Notes under the pieces: model-generated | The model's database searches: none | What the model saw: only the letters and a program-made list of their open reading frames with translations | Told to the model about the DNA's origin: nothing | Program-made: the position numbers and the translations under genes | In this document: positions 31,694-41,579 of the stretch, one piece after another | How positions within the stretch are numbered: position 1 is the first letter of the stretch | Layout: each line of letters begins with the position of its first letter | Source of the DNA: Acidimicrobiaceae bacterium | Lineage (GTDB): Bacteria; Actinomycetota; Acidimicrobiia; Acidimicrobiales; RAAP-2 | DNA: 64,000 bases | Assembly (NCBI GenBank): GCA_003153575.1 | Contig: PLZW01000035.1 | Coordinates: forward strand, 62,001-126,000 | Direction of reading: 5' to 3'

Positions 31694-33040
31694 TCAGCCG
31701 TGGCTGAGGAGGCAGTACCCGTTGGTCGGAACCGTCGGGTCGATAGCCGTGTAGCCGGCGTCCGTGAGGACGGCCGGATTGGCGACCGTGCCCTCGGGGA
31801 ACGTGTGTCCGATGGTCACATCGAGCGGGAAGAAGCCCTGCGCCTTGATGGCGTTTTCGATGTCGGTGCGGAAGCTCACGCCCGTGGAGGGATCGATATC
31901 CGTGGCGCTGGCCTTGCACAGGAAGCCGTACTCAGACGTGAAGTTGAGGGTGGCCTGGCTCGAAGGAACGATGGCCGTCGAGTTGTTGTACACGTTGTAG
32001 AGGCCACGGGTGACCGGGAAGGTCACACCGGCCCCGCCACCGGTGCCCTGCACCGTTGACTGCTTGGCCACGATCCCGTCGATCTTGCCCAAGGTGGTGT
32101 AGGTGGTGGTCGAGGTACCGGCGCAGACGCCTTTGGAACTCGTTCCGGAGACCCCACCGGGGCAGGTCGTCGTGTACTTACCCAGCGACATGAAGTAGAT
32201 GGCGTACTTGGCGTCGCTCTGCCCGTAGATGGTGGCCATCTCGTTCTCGGAGAGGGCGCTGTGCTTGGCACCTGTCGTGTCACCGTTGGTGTTGTCCTTC
32301 ACACACGCCGGGTTGCCACTGAACCCGAGGTAACCCGACCACGTGTTGTAGGTACCCGAGCCGGTCTGGGCCATGTAGCAGTCGATGTGCGCCGACTTGG
32401 TGGCGCCGAGGCACTCCCAGTTCATTTTTACGGTCACGCCGGCTTTGACGCAGCTCAGGGTGTCGTTCATGATGAGCTTCAGGTCAGTGGTGCTGATGTT
32501 GGAGATGGCCGACTGTGCGGTGGCCACTCCCTTGTAATGGTTGAAGGTGGTCCACGAGACGCCGTCCGTGGCGTACTTGACGAAGTTCACCGTGGAACCG
32601 ACGGCGCTGTAGCTGGAGGACCGGGCGTAGTCGATCTGCTGGGTGGGCGAGCCCGAGCCGGAAGCCAACAGGGCGGTGCGGCCGTTGCCCGAGCCGATGG
32701 CCGGAGCCTGAACCGTGAAGTCGTTGTACGGGTTCTCGGATGAGACATTGAAGCCCTGCTCGCCACCGACGGCGCCGGGAGCGAAGGTCGACGTGCCGCA
32801 GTTCAGTGTGGCAGGAATCGATCCAGTGGTGCCGTCTAGGTTGCAGCCGGCAGCGTTGTCGAACACGTTGCTGAGAGCGGTCATCACGGCGTACGAAGTC
32901 TGCGAGCCGCTTCCGACAATGAGGGAAGCACTCGGAGCCGCGCCAGCGGCGCCGGCAAAGGCCAGCGACATCCCCGTGAGGCCGATGGATGCCGCGGCAA
33001 CGGCCGCAGCACCTCGGCGGGTGAACAGTGAACGGATCAT
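31694..33040 (-). CDS. Secreted periplasmic-binding-like protein (phosphate PstS-like)
   Basis: This 448-residue protein has a signal peptide (RSLFTRRGAAAVAAASIGLTGMSLAFAGAAGAA) and then a type 2 binding-protein fold with a GSGSQTSYAVMTALSNVF start that resembles the phosphate-binding loop of PstS (GSGT/S). Cysteines occur in several likely disulfide positions. It has neither a lipobox nor a C-terminal membrane helix, so it may be released. It follows the Pst operon after 247 bp but has its own leader with a TACAGT -10 box (33117-33122), a 5'-UTR hairpin and a good GAGGAGA ribosome site. The ligand is not proven. Confidence 0.65.
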   Translation of the reverse strand: MIRSLFTRRGAAAVAAASIGLTGMSLAFAGAAGAAPSASLIVGSGSQTSYAVMTALSNVFDNAAGCNLDGTTGSIPATLNCGTSTFAPGAVGGEQGFNVSSENPYNDFTVQAPAIGSGNGRTALLASGSGSPTQQIDYARSSSYSAVGSTVNFVKYATDGVSWTTFNHYKGVATAQSAISNISTTDLKLIMNDTLSCVKAGVTVKMNWECLGATKSAHIDCYMAQTGSGTYNTWSGYLGFSGNPACVKDNTNGDTTGAKHSALSENEMATIYGQSDAKYAIYFMSLGKYTTTCPGGVSGTSSKGVCAGTSTTTYTTLGKIDGIVAKQSTVQGTGGGAGVTFPVTRGLYNVYNNSTAIVPSSQATLNFTSEYGFLCKASATDIDPSTGVSFRTDIENAIKAQGFFPLDVTIGHTFPEGTVANPAVLTDAGYTAIDPTVPTNGYCLLSHG

Positions 33041-33287: not shown

Positions 33288-34286
33288 TCAGAAGGTTGCA
33301 GGGAGGGCCCGGGCCACGCTCTCGCAGGCGAACAACCCGCACATCAGCAGCACGGGGGCGGCGAAGAGGTAGACCAGCCACGGCCGGCGCCACCGCCAGG
33401 CCGCGTACGCCGCGACGAGGAGCACGAGCAGAGTGATGATCGACCAGAAGGCGGCGAGGCCGCCGGCCACCGGATCGCCGTCCAACCCGAGTTCGTAGCT
33501 CGGTACCGCCACCGTGTGGTTGGGGACGGCCACCGCGGGGCCGACCAGCTTCCCCTGGACGACCAGGCGCCCGTTCGGCACGGTCGTGGAGTTCGCCGTC
33601 ACCAACGTGATGCGGTTGTCCGTGGTGGGGAGCACCACGTCGCGCTGACCCGCCACCACCGTGTGCACACGGGTCACCTTGTAGGTGAAGGTCCCGGCTC
33701 CGTCCACCACCCGGATCACGGCACCCTTCTTCAGGGTGTTGACAGCGCCGAAGGGCGCGCCGAACGCGACGCGTCGCGCCGCGATGACCGAGTTACCGAG
33801 GGAACCCGGGAGTGCGGAACCCGGCATGAGGCCCGGTCCGTTCATCAGGTCGGCGGCGCTCGTCCCCTGGACGATGACCTGGTCGAGATGGAGCGCAGGA
33901 ATGGTGAGCACACCGATGGCGCTCCCCTCGGGCGGCGACACACCGTCGACCAGCTTGTACAGGGTGAGGGGATGGCCCACCAACGTCTGGGTCAGGCGCT
34001 GTTGATTGCGTGCGGCCGTGAGGGGCGTGAACGCGAACAGGTAGACGATGAAGAGCACGATGAGCGCACCGATGCCGACAAGGGACATGCCGACGAGCCT
34101 CCGGACGGGGAGGTCCGGCAGGTGAATGGTGCGTCCGCCGGCAACGGGGTCATTCGGATCCGACTGGATGCCCCGGTCCTGGTCGGCGTCTCGATCTACG
34201 GACACGGGGTCACCCGGAATCCTGGGCGGGCCGATGGTAGGGACGGCGGCGGACGGCAGGTCGATGGTGGACGGGGTACCGGTCAT
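33288..34286 (-). CDS. Sortase-fold membrane protein lacking catalytic His and Cys (pseudo-sortase)
   Basis: This 332-residue protein has a proline-rich cytosolic N-terminus, a membrane helix (about 63-86), a sortase beta-barrel (about 120-250) and two C-terminal helices (about 276-296 and 302-322). The barrel aligns with class E-type sortases: LGNSVIAARRVAFGAPFGAVNTLKKG and TLVTANSTT then NGRLVVQGKL. The catalytic His of IAGHR is Arg171 (IAARR), and the catalytic Cys of TLTTCNP is Ala231 (TLVTANS). The third residue, Arg240, is kept. Transpeptidase activity is therefore not expected. It overlaps the large binding-protein gene by 4 nt and is the last gene of the Pst transcript. Confidence 0.85.
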   Translation of the reverse strand: MTGTPSTIDLPSAAVPTIGPPRIPGDPVSVDRDADQDRGIQSDPNDPVAGGRTIHLPDLPVRRLVGMSLVGIGALIVLFIVYLFAFTPLTAARNQQRLTQTLVGHPLTLYKLVDGVSPPEGSAIGVLTIPALHLDQVIVQGTSAADLMNGPGLMPGSALPGSLGNSVIAARRVAFGAPFGAVNTLKKGAVIRVVDGAGTFTYKVTRVHTVVAGQRDVVLPTTDNRITLVTANSTTVPNGRLVVQGKLVGPAVAVPNHTVAVPSYELGLDGDPVAGGLAAFWSIITLLVLLVAAYAAWRWRRPWLVYLFAAPVLLMCGLFACESVARALPATF

Positions 34287-36712
34287 TCGGGTACCTCGGA
34301 CTCGCGTCGTCGCCGAGCACCTGGGCCGAACAACAGCAGGGACCCGCCGATCAGGCTGGCCAGTGCCAGAAGGACAATTGCCGGGAGCAGGAACCGGGTG
34401 GCTTCTGCCAGGCTGACCAGCAACAGGCCAGTGGGCAGCGACCTCCCGTTACTCGCGGTGCTGGTGCCACTACCACCCTTTCCACCGCCATTGGCGCCGC
34501 CGCTACCAGCGGTGTCCGCTGATCCAGAGAGCGGCAAGGTGCTCGAAAAGTCGGTTGAACTCGCACCGGAGAAACCGTCGGACCCGGTCGTCGACGATCC
34601 TCCGGTGGGCGAGCCGGCGGGCGAGCCGCTGGTCGCGGATCTGGTGGTTGACTTCTTGCTGGCGGTCGGCTGGGCAACCACTCCGGCGTTGATCTCCGAG
34701 ATCGCCGCCTGATACATCGCCGTCGGCAGCGGCGCGTAGCCGAACGGCAACGAACCCGTATGGGAGAAGCTCACCAGATTGGTCAGGAGGTTCTTGAGTG
34801 TCGTGGCCGCCGCCGCCGGTTGGGGGGTCTTGTCCACCACGGCATAGGTCACCACCGGCATCGGGTAGGCGGCAGGATCGGTATTGCCGTAGTCGACAGC
34901 GTACGTGTTGGGCGGGCAGGTCAGGTCGTCGGCCCCACACGGTTTCAGGTCATTGGCGGCCGCTTCGAGGCTGGCTGCGGTCGGAGCTACGAACGCCCCT
35001 GACGCATTTTGCAGGCTCGCGTCATTGAGTCCGTAGTACGAGGTCTCCGACGTGTCCATGACGCCGAAGGCCACGCGGGGCAACGCACCGGGGCCGGGAA
35101 CGAACGCCGCCGGGTCGCTGTAGGCCCACGTACGGATGTCTCTGGCCTGTCCACTGGGCTGCTGCGCGAGCCCGAAGCTGATGTCCGAACTCGTCAACGC
35201 ACCGATCCCGGGAATCGTGGAGATGCCCTTGCAGGTAGACGGAAAGGGCCAGACGGCGGTCGGATTGTCCACCGGAGGCCAGATCGTCGATCCCACCGGA
35301 GGCGTGATGAGGGTGGTCGAGGCGAGGTGCTGGTCGGTGACGGGCACGGAGACCGGGTTGGCCTTGCCCACCTCGTTGACGGTCGCGTTGAACGCGACGT
35401 TGGGCTGGTTGCAGATCCAACTGGTCGCCTGCAGGCTCGCACCAGTGGCGACGTTGGACATGTACGACCCGAACTGGTTGGGACCACCGACGCCAGGAGC
35501 CGACGGGTTCAGCAGATCGAACGCATCGAACGGAAGCTGCGACGTGAGCGCGTTCACGCTCCCACCCGGCTTGCAGTGGATCAGCGTCGCGCAGTTCAAC
35601 GGCGGGATCAGGAGGTCGTTGGCCACCACGATCGGAGGTGTGTTGAACTGGATATTCCCCTGAGGCGACTGGTACTGACCGGCGATGATGCCGGCCAGCA
35701 TGTTGGGGGTGAGGTTGTATGAGGCGATCGGGAAGTCCACCGGTCCGCCGTTTGCGGAGGCCAGGAATCCGACGGCAGCGCCAGACACGGCTACCGGGAT
35801 CAGGGTGTATTTGGCCGCCAACGCGGGAGTGCCCTCGTAAGCGTTCATCTGCACCGGGTCTGACGCGTTGTCGATGAAGCCGAGGGGCACACCACCGGAC
35901 ACTTCGTCGGAGATCACGCGGTTGCTGTCGGCCGCCGTGTTGGTCGCGGTGACACCGTTGGCACCGTTGCAGCTGGCCGCGACGGCGGCGGTCATGAAGT
36001 GCTCCAGACTGAACGAGCTGTCGGTCTGGATCTGGGGAGCCGAGGGCGGACAACCTTTGGAGGCTGCTGCGAAGCTGATCGGCACCACTGCACTGTTGGC
36101 CGCAGTGACCTGGGGACCATTGCCCACGAAGTTCCCCTGGCCGGGCTCCTCGGTCACCACCACGGCACAGGGGTTGGCGCTGTTGTCACAGTGGAAGCCG
36201 GGGACGGAGCCCGTGGTGTTGGTGATGTCGTGCGCCGGAAATGTCGCATTCCCGTCGGTCGCTGGATTGTAGAAGACCGGGTACGAGACTGTGGAGAGAT
36301 TGCCCGTCGACGCGGAGGTGGTGATCGGGACATGGATCGGCCCGAGCGAGAGTTGCTCCCACTGTCCGGTGAGGCAGGACGGGTCGGACGGATCGGAGGT
36401 GAGCGAGCAGATGGCAATCCGCATGCTTCCGGTCGGGTCGAAGTTGCGGGTCGTCACGAACACGTACTGACCGTCGACCAGGTTGGACACCGGACTGACG
36501 TCCACCGACGGACAACTCTGGACGGAACACGGCAGAGTCACCAGACACCCGGACTGTCCATCGGCGGCGCAGGTGGACGCGGCACCGGCGGTCGTCGCCT
36601 TGGACGTCGTCGGCACAATGGCAGCAACCATGGACACGGTACCGATCGCGAGCGCCAGCGCCAGCGCCATGCTCAGCGACCGACGTCGAATCGGGGAGCG
36701 GACACTGGTCAT
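34283..36712 (-). CDS. Large membrane-anchored PstS-like binding protein (809 residues)
   Basis: The protein has a signal peptide (SMALALALAIGTVSMVAAIVP), a long extracytoplasmic region with binding-protein character (DEVSGGVPLGFIDN, VDFPIASYNLTPNMLAGIIAGQY, GALTSSDISFGLAQQ, PMPVVTYAVVDK) and several Cys, a Ser/Gly/Thr-rich linker of about 70 residues, and a C-terminal tail of LPTG, one or two hydrophobic helices and RRRRESE. The tail resembles a degenerate sorting signal. The ATG at 36712 overlaps the pstS stop by 4 nt; the frame 32 codons further upstream has no signal peptide. At about twice the normal PstS size it may contain more than a ligand-binding domain. Ligand unknown. Confidence 0.7.
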   Translation of the reverse strand: MTSVRSPIRRRSLSMALALALAIGTVSMVAAIVPTTSKATTAGAASTCAADGQSGCLVTLPCSVQSCPSVDVSPVSNLVDGQYVFVTTRNFDPTGSMRIAICSLTSDPSDPSCLTGQWEQLSLGPIHVPITTSASTGNLSTVSYPVFYNPATDGNATFPAHDITNTTGSVPGFHCDNSANPCAVVVTEEPGQGNFVGNGPQVTAANSAVVPISFAAASKGCPPSAPQIQTDSSFSLEHFMTAAVAASCNGANGVTATNTAADSNRVISDEVSGGVPLGFIDNASDPVQMNAYEGTPALAAKYTLIPVAVSGAAVGFLASANGGPVDFPIASYNLTPNMLAGIIAGQYQSPQGNIQFNTPPIVVANDLLIPPLNCATLIHCKPGGSVNALTSQLPFDAFDLLNPSAPGVGGPNQFGSYMSNVATGASLQATSWICNQPNVAFNATVNEVGKANPVSVPVTDQHLASTTLITPPVGSTIWPPVDNPTAVWPFPSTCKGISTIPGIGALTSSDISFGLAQQPSGQARDIRTWAYSDPAAFVPGPGALPRVAFGVMDTSETSYYGLNDASLQNASGAFVAPTAASLEAAANDLKPCGADDLTCPPNTYAVDYGNTDPAAYPMPVVTYAVVDKTPQPAAAATTLKNLLTNLVSFSHTGSLPFGYAPLPTAMYQAAISEINAGVVAQPTASKKSTTRSATSGSPAGSPTGGSSTTGSDGFSGASSTDFSSTLPLSGSADTAGSGGANGGGKGGSGTSTASNGRSLPTGLLLVSLAEATRFLLPAIVLLALASLIGGSLLLFGPGARRRRESEVPE

Positions 36713-38457
36713 GCCGGCCCCTCCCCTACGATTCCTGCACGGCGGCGCTTGATGCGCGTAGCGATGAGCGGTGGGCCGAGCACGAGCGCCAGAAAGAGGA
36801 GCGCCCACCCGATGTAGAGCAGTCCCGACGGTCCGATCACGCTTTTGGTGGCGGCGGCGAGGTCGGACCCACAGATGAACCGACCATCGGGGCAGGCCTT
36901 ACGGACGACCTGGCCATTGACGATCGTATATCCCTCGGCGATCTGGTCGGCGGCCAGTCCTGCGGTAGCGGAATCGGAACCCGTGTTCGACCCGGAGGAG
37001 CCAGAGCCACCGTTCGAGGTCGACGTCCCGCCCGCGCCACCGCCCGCGCCACCGCCCGCGCCACCGCCACCGACGTTCGCAACCGCCGTGGTGGCGGTCA
37101 CGCCACCGCCCGCTACCCCGGCGACGACGGGCGCGCCGGGCAGGACGGTCGTGCCATCGACATAGGGATTCTTACAGTTGGCCGCAGTGGGCGGGGGCGG
37201 TTGGACGCCGCCGTTCATCCGGCCGACCGCCAGGAAGTCCTCCTGCACGAGCACCGGCGGCAGGGGCGAATACCCGAGGAAGGACATCCGTGCCTGCCCG
37301 GCACAGGCTAGGTACGCGACGAACTGGCCGAGGGCCTGGCCCTTGGACGTCGGAAACGGCGATGCGATGTTCGGGCCACCGGCACACGCGGTGTGCTGGC
37401 CGGCGGCAAGAGTCGGGGAGCAGGCGGCGACCAGGTAGCTGTACGCCGACAGCGGATAGGCGTTGGCCAACGGGTTGGTGTAGACGCCGGTCAGGTCCTG
37501 GGTGAGGTCGGCGTGGAGGACGGCGGCCTCGAGGGCGGTGGCGACGTTCACCGACGACGGTTGCACGGCACTGCCGTGGGCGTTCACCAACGAAGCCACC
37601 GGGAAGTGGTGGTTGATGGCATAGGCGGTCTCCACGTAGGTGATCGAGCCGACGCTGGCGGCCGAGGCGACGTAGTTGGCGGCGTTGTCGGAACCCACCT
37701 GCGGCACGAACTTCCCGAGGTTCGGGTAGTTGTTCGGATTGTTGACTTGGCCGAGGTCGGACGGGTAGAGCCAGGTGGCACTGGGCAACGCCAGCGGCGA
37801 ACGGGAGAAGTCCGTATTGGCCGTATTGATGTCCGCAGGGTCCTGGTGCAGGAGGTAGTCCGACAGCAGGTAGTTCTCACCGGATGGCTCGCTCCGATAC
37901 ACCGGGATGATCGGCTGGTTGGGCAGGTCGCACTGGTTGGCCGACGGGCAGAGCGCAGGGTTGAGGGCCCGGATGGCCGGGTCGTTCCACGTGGTGATCT
38001 TCCCGAGGAAGATCTTCGATATCACTGTTGCGTCGAGGTTGAGGTTGGTGATCTGACTGCCGTCCTGCCCGTTCAGGTTGAACATGAAGGCCAGACCGCC
38101 GGCCACATCAGGAAAGTACTGGTAGGGCTGGTTCGGCGAACTCTGGGCCTGTCCGGAGCTGTACGGAATGTCCGAGGCTCCGAAGTCGACCTGGTTGGTG
38201 GCGAACTGGTTGAGGCCGATGATCGAGCTCTGCACCTGCCAGTTGATATTCAGGCCGAAGAGCGTGTTGGACGTACCCACCCATTCCTGGATGGCCGCGC
38301 CGGCGAAACTCGAGCCGGTCGATTGCATGTTCGGACTCGCCCCCGCTGGCAGGGCCCCCCAGAGCTGCGAAGCGCCGAGCACGACGAGAAGCACCGCCGT
38401 CACAGCAGCGGCGCGCACCCACCGGGCCGGCCGGTCAGCCGAATTGACCGTTGACAT
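36709..38457 (-). CDS. pstS: Phosphate-binding protein PstS with C-terminal membrane anchor
   Basis: The protein has a signal peptide (VRAAAVTAVLLVVLGASQLWGALPAGAS) and then a PstS fold with the phosphate loop TGSSFAGAAIQEW, FGASDIPYSSG, the IFLGKITTWNDPAI segment and YRSEPSGENYLLSDYL. At 582 residues it is longer than the usual 350-400 because of a Gly/Ser-rich linker and a C-terminal helix (LLYIGWALLFLALVLGPPLIATRIKRRR) that should anchor it. The linker contains three perfect copies of a 12-bp unit (37031-37066, coding Gly-Gly-Ala-Gly) that could vary in number. There is no lipobox. The start overlaps the pstB 3' end by 23 nt. Confidence 0.88.
   Translation of the reverse strand: MSTVNSADRPARWVRAAAVTAVLLVVLGASQLWGALPAGASPNMQSTGSSFAGAAIQEWVGTSNTLFGLNINWQVQSSIIGLNQFATNQVDFGASDIPYSSGQAQSSPNQPYQYFPDVAGGLAFMFNLNGQDGSQITNLNLDATVISKIFLGKITTWNDPAIRALNPALCPSANQCDLPNQPIIPVYRSEPSGENYLLSDYLLHQDPADINTANTDFSRSPLALPSATWLYPSDLGQVNNPNNYPNLGKFVPQVGSDNAANYVASAASVGSITYVETAYAINHHFPVASLVNAHGSAVQPSSVNVATALEAAVLHADLTQDLTGVYTNPLANAYPLSAYSYLVAACSPTLAAGQHTACAGGPNIASPFPTSKGQALGQFVAYLACAGQARMSFLGYSPLPPVLVQEDFLAVGRMNGGVQPPPPTAANCKNPYVDGTTVLPGAPVVAGVAGGGVTATTAVANVGGGGAGGGAGGGAGGTSTSNGGSGSSGSNTGSDSATAGLAADQIAEGYTIVNGQVVRKACPDGRFICGSDLAAATKSVIGPSGLLYIGWALLFLALVLGPPLIATRIKRRRAGIVGEGPA
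37031..37066. repeat. Three copies of a 12-bp tandem repeat inside pstS
   Basis: CCCGCGCCACCG is repeated three times without change (37031-37042, 37043-37054, 37055-37066). On the coding strand it gives a Gly/Ala linker. Copy-number change would keep the frame and change linker length. Confidence 0.85.
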
Positions 38458-39292
38458 AGTCGAACGTCCTTTGGTCGGTGGGATTTCCGAAGATGGTCTC
38501 GGTGCGTCCCGCCTCGATCACCCGTCCGGGTAGATTCTCCTCGGCCAGGAAGAAGGCGCAGTAGTCCGAGACGCGCTGAGCCTGCTGCATGTTGTGGGTC
38601 ACGATCACGACCGTGACCTCGTCGGCGATGTCCTTGATCGTCTCCTCGATCCGCAGTGTGGACGTCGGGTCCAACGCCGAGCACGGTTCGTCCATCAGCA
38701 GTACCCGTGGCTTCACTGCGAGCGCGCGCGCGATGCACAACCGCTGCTGCTGGCCGCCGGACAGGGCACCGCCCAGTTCGCCCAGGCGGTCCTTCACTTC
38801 TTTCCACAGACCGGCCTTGGTCAGCGACGCTTCCACCAGGTCGCCTTTGTCGCCGGCGGAGACCCGCGAGAACCGGAGACCCGCGAGCACGTTCTCGGCG
38901 ATGGTCATGGCAGGAAAGGGATTGGGCTTCTGGAAGACCATGCCGATGTGGCGCCGGGTCTCCATGGCCCGCTGTCCCGGGCCGTAGATATCGAGGCCAT
39001 CGAGTCGCACCGAACCTGCCAATTGCGCGCCCGGCACAACCTCGTGCATCCGATTGAGGATGCGCAGGAACGTGGACTTGCCGCAGCCTGACGGTCCGAT
39101 CAATGCCGTCACCTTGGACTTCTCCATGGTCAACGTCACCCCGGCGAGCACCAGCCGTCCGCTGAACCAGGCGTGCACTCCGTCGGCGTCGATCTGACCG
39201 GCCTCGCCGGAAAAGTCGGTGCCGCGATTGTGCCCGAGGCCACTGACGTCCTCGGGGACCGGAGGTGGCGGCGTGGTGGCGTAGGTGGTCAT
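38435..39292 (-). CDS. pstB: Phosphate ABC transporter ATP-binding protein PstB
   Basis: This is the ATPase of the high-affinity phosphate importer. The Walker A motif GPSGCGKST, the Q-loop FQKPNPFP, the signature LSGGQQQRLCIARAL, the Walker B LLMDEPCSALDP and the H-loop VTHN are all present. The ATG at 39292 gives 285 residues with a 38-residue non-conserved N-terminal extension. It overlaps pstA by 4 nt and pstS by 23 nt, so translation is coupled. Confidence 0.95.
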   Translation of the reverse strand: MTTYATTPPPPVPEDVSGLGHNRGTDFSGEAGQIDADGVHAWFSGRLVLAGVTLTMEKSKVTALIGPSGCGKSTFLRILNRMHEVVPGAQLAGSVRLDGLDIYGPGQRAMETRRHIGMVFQKPNPFPAMTIAENVLAGLRFSRVSAGDKGDLVEASLTKAGLWKEVKDRLGELGGALSGGQQQRLCIARALAVKPRVLLMDEPCSALDPTSTLRIEETIKDIADEVTVVIVTHNMQQAQRVSDYCAFFLAEENLPGRVIEAGRTETIFGNPTDQRTFDYVNGQFG

Positions 39293-40584
39293 TCGGGGCT
39301 CCTCTCGATCGGGATCGGCAGGAAGTAACGGGCCATCATGTCGTCCTCTGTCGGCTGTGCCCGGCCTGACTTCTTGGACTTCGTGCGGGAGAAGTACCGG
39401 GCCAGCACGAAGAGGATGAGCACGATCGACATGAGCACGAAGGCGGCCTGGAATGCGATGTCGATCAGGACCTGCTGGGCGGCATGGGTGTTGGAGAGGA
39501 TGACCAACGGGAGGGCACCCTGATCGTGGACCAAGGGGTTGGCGTTCAGCACCTGGGATCCGAAGGCGGTGAAGATGAGAGGTGCTGTCTCGCCGACGAT
39601 GCGGGCGACGCCGAGGAGTACCGCTGTCACCACACCGGACCGGGCCGTCGGAATGACGACGGACCACACCGTGCGCCACTCGGGGGCGCCGAGGGAGAGG
39701 GATGCCTCGCGCAGGCCGCTCGGCACGACGCGGAGCACCTCTTCCACCACGCGGGTGACCGACGGGAGGAGGATCACCACGAGGGCCAAGGAGGCGGCGA
39801 AGCCCGAATAGTGGAGCACGCCGGTGAAGATGAAGATCGAATAGATGAAGACGCCTGCCACGATCGAGGGCGTCCCGCTCATGGCCGTCACCACCGTACG
39901 GACGAGGCGGGCCGTCCGGCCGGTGCCGACTTCGTTGAGGTAGACGGCGGTAGCGATGGCAAATGGCACTCCCATGAGGGTGGCCATCAACACCTGCTCC
40001 AACGTACCCACGATGGCCTGGAGTACACCTACGTGATTGAGGAGGTTGGGGTCGGAGGCGGCAAGGGTCCTCTGGTCCTTGGTGAAGAGCGCGCTCCAGT
40101 GGATGGACGGGACGGCCTTGTAGGTCACCCAGGCCACGATGAAGATGACGATCCCGATAATGAGTAGGCCGGCGGTCCACACGAGGATGCCCGCGACCCG
40201 GTCGGTCGCCACCTGGCGCTCGATCACCTGGGACGTCCCGAACCACGTGAGCGCCAGGAAACCCGCATACCAGCACACGAGGAAGCCCAAGCCACCGGTG
40301 AGAGAGGTCAGTTGGTAGAAGACGACCCACACCAGGCAGAACGATGAGAGTGCGGAGACCACGATCAGCGCCACGTCCTGCGGGCCCACGGCACCGGGTC
40401 GGATGGGCGTGGGCAGGCGCCTCGGCGCCGGTGGGTCAGGAGTTCCACCGGAAGGATCGCCGGGGCCGCGTGTCGGAGGCACCGGGCGGGAGGGCTGCCG
40501 GGTCGGCAGCGATCCCGTCGACACCGAGGAATTGGCGATCAGGACTCCCGGAGGGGCGGCCTGCATGTCGGCCTCGGAACTCAC
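39289..40584 (-). CDS. pstA: Phosphate ABC transporter permease PstA
   Basis: PstA is the second membrane subunit of the Pst importer. It shows the permease EAA-type loop GLREASLSLGAPEWRTVWSVVIPTARSG and six or more helices. A Pro/Arg-rich cytosolic extension of about 70 residues precedes the first helix, which explains the 431-residue length against the usual 280-300. Two further helices are present before the conserved permease core. The GTG at 40584 overlaps the pstC stop by 4 nt (GTGA). Confidence 0.92.
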   Translation of the reverse strand: MSSEADMQAAPPGVLIANSSVSTGSLPTRQPSRPVPPTRGPGDPSGGTPDPPAPRRLPTPIRPGAVGPQDVALIVVSALSSFCLVWVVFYQLTSLTGGLGFLVCWYAGFLALTWFGTSQVIERQVATDRVAGILVWTAGLLIIGIVIFIVAWVTYKAVPSIHWSALFTKDQRTLAASDPNLLNHVGVLQAIVGTLEQVLMATLMGVPFAIATAVYLNEVGTGRTARLVRTVVTAMSGTPSIVAGVFIYSIFIFTGVLHYSGFAASLALVVILLPSVTRVVEEVLRVVPSGLREASLSLGAPEWRTVWSVVIPTARSGVVTAVLLGVARIVGETAPLIFTAFGSQVLNANPLVHDQGALPLVILSNTHAAQQVLIDIAFQAAFVLMSIVLILFVLARYFSRTKSKKSGRAQPTEDDMMARYFLPIPIERSPE

Positions 40585-41579
40585 AGGTCCACCCCGGCTC
40601 CGCTTCGTGAGCGGTTGACGATCGACGAGGCAGCCAGGTTGATGACCAAGGTGATCACGAAGAGGGTGAAGCCAGCGAGCAGGAGCGCCTGCGTGCCGAG
40701 CTTGCCTCCGGCACCGAAGTTGACCACGATGAACTGGGAGACCGTCGTACCGCCGTGCTGGAGGATGTGAGGGCCGTAGAGGAAGCCTCCGCCCAGGATG
40801 ATGGTGACGGCGATGGTCTCCTCGAGGGCGCGCCCGAGCCCGAGCATGACGGCGCCGATCATGCCACCCCGGCCGAAGGGGATGACCACCGTCCGGATCA
40901 TCTGCCACCGGCTGGCGCCAAGGGCGAGGGCGGCCTCGCGCTCGCCCGGCGGGGCCAGGGAGAAGACCTCCCTGCAGATGGAAGCGACGATGGGCACGAT
41001 CATGATCCCGACTACGAGTCCGGCGATGAAGATCGAAGCATTGAGGGGTGGGCTCGTCACCTTGAAGAACGGGACGAATGCCAGGTGCCGGGAGAGCCAC
41101 GTGCTGAGGCCGACGACATTCGGCTGCAGCTCGAAGATCGCCCACAGACCGAAGATGATGCTGGGGATGGCGGCGGCCAGGTCGACGAGGGCGATGAGCG
41201 AGCGCCGGCTCCTTCGGGGAACGTACTCACTGAGGAAGATGGCGGTGGCGATGGCAACCGGCGTACCGACGATCATGGCCACCATGGCCACTTCGACCGT
41301 GCCGACCAGGGATGCGAACACACCGAATGTCGGATTGTGGCCGAGCGTGTTGAACCCCGAATGGGTGAAGAAGCTGAGTCCCGCCACCCGGAACGCAGGG
41401 AAGCCCTTGTTGATCAGGAAGAAGCCGATGGCGGCCAACAGCACCAGTACACCGAGGCCGGCGATCTGCACCCCCCGCCGGTAGATGCGGTCCGGCATCG
41501 AGTAGTCCCGATTGGGCGTGATGGGCGATGGGGTGACGCCGACCGATCCACCGGGACGCATGTCGAATTCGATGGTCAT
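40581..41579 (-). CDS. pstC: Phosphate ABC transporter permease PstC
   Basis: PstC is the first membrane subunit of the Pst importer. It has six helices, with the loop PPGEREAALALGASRWQMIRTVVIPFGRGGMIGA and ALEETIAVTIILGG. The ATG at 41579 gives 332 residues; the frame start nine codons upstream is a TTG without support. It is the first gene of the Pst operon and is preceded by a PHO box and a TACGAT -10 box, leaving a leader of about 100 nt. No phoU or phoP/phoR gene is in this window. Confidence 0.94.
   Translation of the reverse strand: MTIEFDMRPGGSVGVTPSPITPNRDYSMPDRIYRRGVQIAGLGVLVLLAAIGFFLINKGFPAFRVAGLSFFTHSGFNTLGHNPTFGVFASLVGTVEVAMVAMIVGTPVAIATAIFLSEYVPRRSRRSLIALVDLAAAIPSIIFGLWAIFELQPNVVGLSTWLSRHLAFVPFFKVTSPPLNASIFIAGLVVGIMIVPIVASICREVFSLAPPGEREAALALGASRWQMIRTVVIPFGRGGMIGAVMLGLGRALEETIAVTIILGGGFLYGPHILQHGGTTVSQFIVVNFGAGGKLGTQALLLAGFTLFVITLVINLAASSIVNRSRSGAGVDL

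Follow-up and report, generated by a model that had tools for sequence, protein, structure and literature searches.

The gene at positions 33288 to 34286 on the reverse strand of the 64,000-nucleotide stretch of Acidimicrobiaceae DNA analysed here (the window) encodes a sortase barrel in which the catalytic His and the catalytic Cys have both been replaced. It belongs to a conserved family of such proteins, here called pseudosortases, whose genes lie next to those of the Pst transporter. We propose, with a probability of about one half, that the conserved pseudosortase serves a distinct type of Pst as an accessory subunit, a scaffold that would hold the PstS-like protein PstS2 at the transporter without cutting it. 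The proposal builds on the fold, the loss of catalytic residues, the linkage to pst genes, purifying selection and the co-occurrence with PstS2, each documented below from sequences or models; from these we infer the formation of a complex, a binding surface and an effect on phosphate uptake. The features of the region are as follows, with gene starts called by a codon-usage script.

31694..33040, reverse strand: S3, secreted protein without a C-terminal transmembrane (TM) segment, also downstream of the pseudosortase in close relatives
33288..34286, reverse strand: pseudosortase gene, 332 residues, three predicted TM helices, sortase barrel without catalytic His and Cys
33306..33473, reverse strand: two C-terminal helices, residues 272-299 and 302-327, then the LPATF C-terminus (AlphaFold2 model)
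33543..33920, reverse strand: sortase beta barrel, residues 123-248 (Pfam, AlphaFold2, Foldseek)
33567..33569, reverse strand: Arg240 codon, catalytic Arg position, kept here (Arg in 24 of 121 Cys-less rows)
33594..33596, reverse strand: Ala231 codon, place of the catalytic Cys (alignment with intact homologues)
33774..33776, reverse strand: Arg171 codon, place of the catalytic His (alignment; Arg in 113 of 121 Cys-less rows)
33975..34106, reverse strand: N-terminal helix including the first TM segment, residues 61-104 (AlphaFold2 model)
34283..36670, reverse strand: PstS2, N-terminal domain seemingly neocarzinostatin-like, PstS fold, C-terminal TM segment (start chosen by script; longest reading frame from 36808)
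36709..38457, reverse strand: PstS1, TM-anchored phosphate-binding protein (PBP_like_2, 1.6e-23; TIGR00975, 9.2e-48, below cut-off; C-terminal TM segment)
38435..39292, reverse strand: pstB, conserved among loci, named from sequence and place, not by family search
39289..40389, reverse strand: pstA, conserved among loci, named in the same way
40581..41579, reverse strand: pstC, conserved among loci, named in the same way

The pseudosortase reading frame is intact, from an ATG at 34286 to its final base at 33288 (332 residues). Its start shares four bases (ATGA) with the stop of PstS2, in line with the translational coupling to a PstS-like gene read from the bare sequence in a first-pass annotation. 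The same annotation had described a membrane-anchored barrel related to class E sortases, and this was borne out. The Pfam Sortase family (PF04203) matched the protein at 3e-21, above its cut-off, and the best NCBIfam match by E-value was class_E_sortase (NF033747; 8.8e-25), although its 87.8 bits fall under the curated cut-off of 160. The generic sortase model TIGR01076 is passed with 52 bits against a cut-off of 39.35, hence genes of this kind will probably carry a sortase annotation, and surface-proteome predictions would then go astray. A phmmer search against the sequences of solved structures returned 56 entries, named either as sortases or generically (Cysteine protease, LPXTG-site transpeptidase, Putative secreted protein). 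An AlphaFold2 model based on 34 sequences (mean pLDDT 84.2) contains a helix at residues 61-104, strands between 123 and 248 and helices at 272-299 and 302-327; it thus shows three membrane helices, where anchoring alone had been suggested. In a Foldseek search of the PDB, sortases made up all of the best 50 of 345 matches, and superposition on SrtE of S. avermitilis (5go6) gave a TMt of 0.79 (target length) and an rmsd of 1.7. Prediction of the barrel structure, a check named beforehand, therefore returned a sortase fold. When the protein was aligned with catalytically intact homologues, Arg171 stood in the His column, Ala231 in the Cys column and Arg240 in the Arg column, confirming the two replacements that had been read from the window alone.

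The loss of the catalytic residues extends far beyond this protein. In a first search of 100 relatives some sortase match was found in 84, and together with the search of the window's own genome this yielded 32 loci, 13 without both His and Cys, two with His kept and Cys lost, and 17 intact. Larger regions were retrieved around 18, 20 and 20 hits of the searches among relatives and in the class, with six more after a search of the phylum; most pseudosortase loci were sampled because of their sortase. The resulting 144 sortase-family rows with genomic context comprised 23 with His and Cys and 121 without Cys, a row being counted as Cys-less unless both residues were present (none had Cys without His). 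Among the 121, the His column held Arg in 113, Lys in 3 and His in 5, and the Cys column Ala in 82, Ser in 22, Thr in 8, Gly in 7, Val in 1 and Met in 1. As these rows include near-copies, a set of 108 was also used, which excludes 12 rows at 95% identity or more as well as the partial L037; it gave the same residue picture (Arg for His in 100/108). The replacement of His (mostly by Arg) and of Cys (most often by Ala), whose conservation was to be checked among homologues, is thus not a local loss. The remaining catalytic residue behaves differently: retention of Arg240 had been noted correctly for the window protein, but it is not a feature of the family, as Arg occupies this column in 24 of the 121 Cys-less rows and 23 of the 108. 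In the comparison set of 37 intact class E-like sortases, every row carried the three catalytic residues His, Cys and Arg.

A scan of named genomes (alignment A4) was seeded with Cys-less proteins, using two peptide patterns that do not span the catalytic positions. Of the 80 loci listed out of 81, 79 had readable catalytic columns, and none of these had Cys; by hand count of the matches listed, 74 of the 79 had Arg in the His column, two had Lys and three had His. The titles of the listed records include Streptomyces, Kitasatospora, Agromyces and Nocardioides, so that cultured hosts of the module exist. Some record names are possibly the product of mislabelling or contamination. The pseudosortase on a contig titled Rhodococcus rhodnii is 97.5% identical to that of Kibdelosporangium aridum (L263, L264), and MAGs titled Bifidobacterium breve and Ferrithrix thermotolerans (L253, L197) also carry one.

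Other positions set the two groups apart as well. SrtE1 of Streptomyces coelicolor has His251, Cys320, Arg329 and a signal-reading Tyr229 in the beta3/beta4 loop (PMC5148588); the window protein has Arg, Ala, Arg and Met in these places. The Tyr column of intact rows, which aligns with GHY of 5go5 and presumably corresponds to Tyr229, held Tyr in 34/37 and Phe in 3/37 intact proteins versus Tyr in 3/108 Cys-less ones, the window having Met154. With the signal-reading Tyr of class E lost, ordinary recognition of LAxTG is disfavoured. Conversely, R171, the linker between barrel and second TM helix (E265, D271) and the third TM helix (P311, 98% versus 34%) are more fixed in pseudosortases than in intact relatives, and V167 of pseudosortases is Ala in most intact relatives.

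The window's gene order, pstC-pstA-pstB-PstS1-PstS2-pseudosortase, is as first described, and the tie to pst reaches far beyond this one operon. With a pst neighbour defined as PstA, PstB or PstC within 10 kb (thresholds 100, 240 and 130 bits), 109 of the 144 sortase-family rows had one, and in all 109 the Cys was absent. Pst neighbours were missing from 35 rows. Of these, 23 were the intact sortases, 13 of which had flanks longer than 7 kb in both directions; the remaining 12 were Cys-less, and each lay less than 7 kb from the end of a contig or fetched stretch. Every Cys-less row whose flanks both exceed 7 kb (66/66) had pst neighbours, compared with 0/23 intact sortases. Homologues with intact His and Cys in the same context, set beforehand as the observation that would point to a local loss, occurred in none of the 109 pst-neighboured rows.

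Three operon plans were seen. The first is that of the window; in the second, PstS2-pseudosortase is divergent from pstCAB-S1; the third reads pstC-A-S1-S2, zero to four small anchored proteins, pseudosortase and pstB. The small anchored proteins between PstS2 and the pseudosortase in the third plan carry LPxTG- or LAxTG-like tails (L048, L082, L084, L088, L207 and others). PstB of this plan (L048, L082, L084) was predicted at 424-498 residues from script-called starts, versus 285 in the window, and may have an N-terminal extension. Within the window's own genome, which is 76% complete, pseudosortase operons lie on two contigs (C27 and C31), a pst locus without one on a third (C17) and an intact class E-like sortase on a fourth (C9).

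The linkage was also approached from the transporter. A PstC search of 198 genomes of the class gave matches at E 1e-40 or better in 58, with 78 listed places, which were divided at 226 bits, a post hoc line between PstC types. The 31 places at or above it included 22 with a pseudosortase, six that lacked one near contig ends and three that lacked one even though 5 kb was available on either side (L122, L125, L129); one of the 22, L131, encodes a protein with His kept and Ser for Cys. The 47 places below the line comprised 15 outside the sample, 30 without a pseudosortase and two that share their locus with a neighbouring pseudosortase operon (G197:C14:20255 and G244:C24:91058). In L125 a TM-anchored PstS1 occurs without PstS2 or pseudosortase, and the module is therefore not required for a Pst with TM-anchored PstS1. 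Separately, a 6.2-kb contig (L269) carries an intact sortase beside a pst-type Cys-less sortase that keeps His.

Phylogenetic trees separated the two groups cleanly. In a tree of 71 rows, 37 Cys-less and 34 intact proteins were split by one branch (SH-aLRT 96; 0/500 shuffles as low), and in a tree of 145 rows from which the catalytic columns had been removed, 108 Cys-less and 37 intact proteins again fell on two sides (SH-aLRT 95). Both trees are quick and their root was not inferred, hence a single catalytic loss, in a lineage that today extends across Actinomycetota, would be the simplest reading and not a proof. L046 forms a long branch of unsure placement; its Cys-less sortase (L046:5073-7871, G080), in which His is kept and Cys replaced by Ser, lies on an 11.6-kb contig where no pst gene was seen, and is possibly a second kind of pseudosortase. 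Seventeen pairs of pseudosortases of 79-99.7% identity gave dN/dS values of 0.03-0.28, some with very small dS, so that the coding sequences of close pairs are under purifying selection; for the window gene against L034 and L035 the values were 0.20 and 0.33, at a dS of about 1.

The gene adjoining the pseudosortase provides the candidate partner. A PstS2 profile was built from 20 examples; clear PstS2 proteins scored between about 134 and 830 bits, PstS1 did not exceed about 119, and three likely PstS2 fall under 130 bits (L097, L268 with 119, and a fragment in L095). Scores above 130 bits were found in 64 of 66 pseudosortase loci with full flanks, the exceptions being L215 (no match) and L268, whereas the 23 intact-sortase rows and 28 pst loci lacking a sortase (5 kb available on either side) had no such score. 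The profile was seeded with 20 pseudosortase loci, thus finding PstS2 in such loci is circular to a degree, a reservation that does not extend to its absence elsewhere. Among the 40 loci retrieved around PstC places such scores were confined to L123, L127 and L128, at or near a contig end, and the PstS2 candidate of L131 reached 43.5 bits only.

The window PstS2 was modelled with moderate confidence (pLDDT 65): a beta region at the N-terminus is followed by a PstS-like part, and a single helix lies at the C-terminus. Foldseek placed PstS structures first, with a TMt of 0.71-0.77 for the first eight. Neocarzinostatin and macromomycin (2mcm, 2cbo) were among the weaker matches, NCBIfam chromo_anti matched at 3.4e-4, below cut-off, and the N-terminal domain seems to be of this type. 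Six cysteines are invariant in a 30-row PstS2 alignment. The Pfam PBP domain matched 8 of 30 PstS2 proteins, the window PstS2 not among them. The string R-x-[DE]-x-SG, which we take to be the phosphate site of PstS, was present in 7/85 PstS2 versus 57/62 PstS1-like proteins (all profile hits at or under 130 bits and of at least 340 residues), and is absent from the window PstS2. Since PstS2 mostly lacks the string, it is probably not an ordinary phosphate binder, and going by sequence only PstS1 looks like one. Of the two anchored phosphate-binding proteins originally assigned to the operon, PstS1 thus stands, whereas PstS2 keeps the fold and anchor but is probably not such a binder.

For 97 of the 121 Cys-less rows, gene calling gave an upstream gene on the same strand, and its product had a C-terminal TM segment in 82. 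An overlap like that of the window gene was counted by hand in 40 of the 97. An LxxTG-like motif before the C-terminal TM segment occurred in 26/97, a count that includes weak matches such as IADTG, versus 46 among all 1500 called genes, a number that includes the 26. A fusion of PstS2 and pseudosortase, which would have testified to contact between them, was found in none of the three sets of reading frames searched.

Taken as a mechanism, a class E-like sortase would have lost its transpeptidase residues, most simply once, and the catalytically empty protein would have been retained as an auxiliary part of a separate kind of Pst transporter. This type would consist of a TM-anchored PstS1, a TM-anchored degenerate PstS2, the pseudosortase and PstCAB. 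The membrane-bound barrel and the C-terminal helix pair may grip the juxtamembrane or TM segment of PstS2 without cutting, and in certain lineages an additional operon protein might also be held by its LxxTG-type tail. The extracytoplasmic parts held in this way would stay beside the permease. With nucleophile and His lost, catalysis by the known sortase route is unlikely. We consider a scaffold the likeliest role because the conserved extras lie partly in the linker and third TM helix, and because the adjoining gene product so often has a C-terminal TM segment; the conservation of E265, D271 and P311 fits contacts at the membrane. The LxxTG-like motifs of adjacent genes suggest a retained taste for sorting-signal tails in the lineages that have them. 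As a universal ligand the LxxTG tail was rejected, being limited to 26 of 97 upstream genes. More tentatively, and less likely than not, the module could be viewed as a second actinobacterial Pst architecture, in which a signature-less PstS and a non-cutting sortase form a permanent membrane-anchored unit and the pseudosortase, as receptor for sorting-signal-like tails, controls which surface proteins stay at the transporter.

Several other roles were weighed against a scaffold. The pseudosortase might compete with the housekeeping class E sortase, shielding LxxTG or LxxTG-like tails of operon proteins and so keeping these membrane-bound. Intact class E-like sortases do occur in the class, one of them in the window's own genome, and the adjacent genes with LxxTG-like motifs could supply the tails; however, 71 of 97 upstream genes, including the window PstS2, have no such motif, and the Tyr that reads the signal is gone, which makes this role unlikely. 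Slightly harder to credit is an anion pocket, in which the emptied active site with its new arginines would bind phosphate, polyphosphate or teichoic-acid phosphodiesters and concentrate or sense them for PstS. The near-uniform Arg in place of His speaks for it, as do the arginines of the groove loop (Arg154 in 65/108, Arg155 in 89/108, where intact proteins mostly have Tyr, 34/37, and Pro, 29/37). Yet the window protein has Met154 and Pro155, the catalytic Arg is mostly lost, and positions specific to pseudosortases lie also in the third TM helix and the linker. An adaptor that senses the state of the transporter in the membrane and relays it to PhoR-PhoP appears improbable. Pst signals phosphate status in other bacteria, and a protein with three predicted membrane helices and, by its inferred orientation, an extracytoplasmic domain is encoded in the operon; against this, the model has no cytoplasmic domain. 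A scan with one PHO-box pattern, which we take to be Streptomyces-like, gave 2 matches versus 0.85 expected, and hence no evidence of regulation.

Retained enzymatic activity and simple decay can be given very little weight. Ser (22/121) or Thr (8/121) could in principle replace the nucleophile, but the position holds Ala, Gly, Val or Met in 91/121, His is lost in 116/121, and the Ser and Thr forms share with the others one side of the branch that separates intact sortases. An alternative nucleophile was consequently rejected, most relatives having Ala. That a sortase gene is merely dying in one lineage would account for the lost residues and nothing more; similar replacements throughout the family and the dN/dS of the 17 pairs rule out a local pseudogene for practical purposes, and pst-type hits of the first relatives search had no internal stops. 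The original view that the gene is not decaying was therefore sound.

The non-cutting scaffold that we favor combines known parts. The barrel fold is common to the class E sortases SrtE1 of S. coelicolor, SrtE of S. avermitilis (5go5, 5go6) and SrtE of Thermobifida fusca, and all 34 members of alignment A2 match NF033747 at E 0.01 or better; unlike these enzymes, the window gene lies within a pst operon and scores well under the family cut-off. With intact class E-like sortases of the same class (e.g. L050, window's genome) the pseudosortases share the layout with C-terminal helices, an LLPxx-like end and a sortase tree; the intact proteins differ in their complete catalytic residues, a Tyr or Phe that reads the signal, and the lack of pstA, pstB or pstC within 10 kb (0/23). 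The operon resembles PstSCAB in having pstC, pstA, pstB and a PstS1 that matches PstS models, and departs from it in the TM anchor of PstS1 and the addition of a degenerate PstS2 and a pseudosortase. Ordinary, weaker-scoring pst loci encode a PstS without a C-terminal TM segment, where seen, and lack both PstS2 and pseudosortase. The iRhoms are pseudoenzymes that bind substrates of their relatives. By analogy only, as the folds are unrelated, the pseudosortase would likewise be an inactive membrane relative of a processing enzyme, binding tails without cutting.

In the open full-text literature, judged by titles and the beginnings of abstracts, we did not find a natural catalytically dead or pst-linked sortase described, nor the combination of this known fold with this known transporter; two wording matches there concern an engineered mutant (PMC3516528) and a cleavage motif (PMC8615915). 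Sortases have been described as enzymes, and a branch of them without catalytic residues that is widespread, under selection and linked to a nutrient transporter would put the fold to a new use. The data suggest that an enzyme fold has been reused as a non-catalytic part of such a transporter.

Two minor observations concern the downstream gene and the sortase C-terminus. S3 (window 31694-33040; also L035, L036, L037 and L051) had no Pfam or NCBIfam match over cut-off. Most class E-like sortases, intact and dead (window 33291-33305, L050, L117), end in LLPxx or similar (LPATF, LPANY); among rows with a residue at position 329, all Cys-less ones (100%) and 97% of the intact ones have Pro. Such a C-terminus resembles a cleaved sorting motif and is possibly a self-binding tail.
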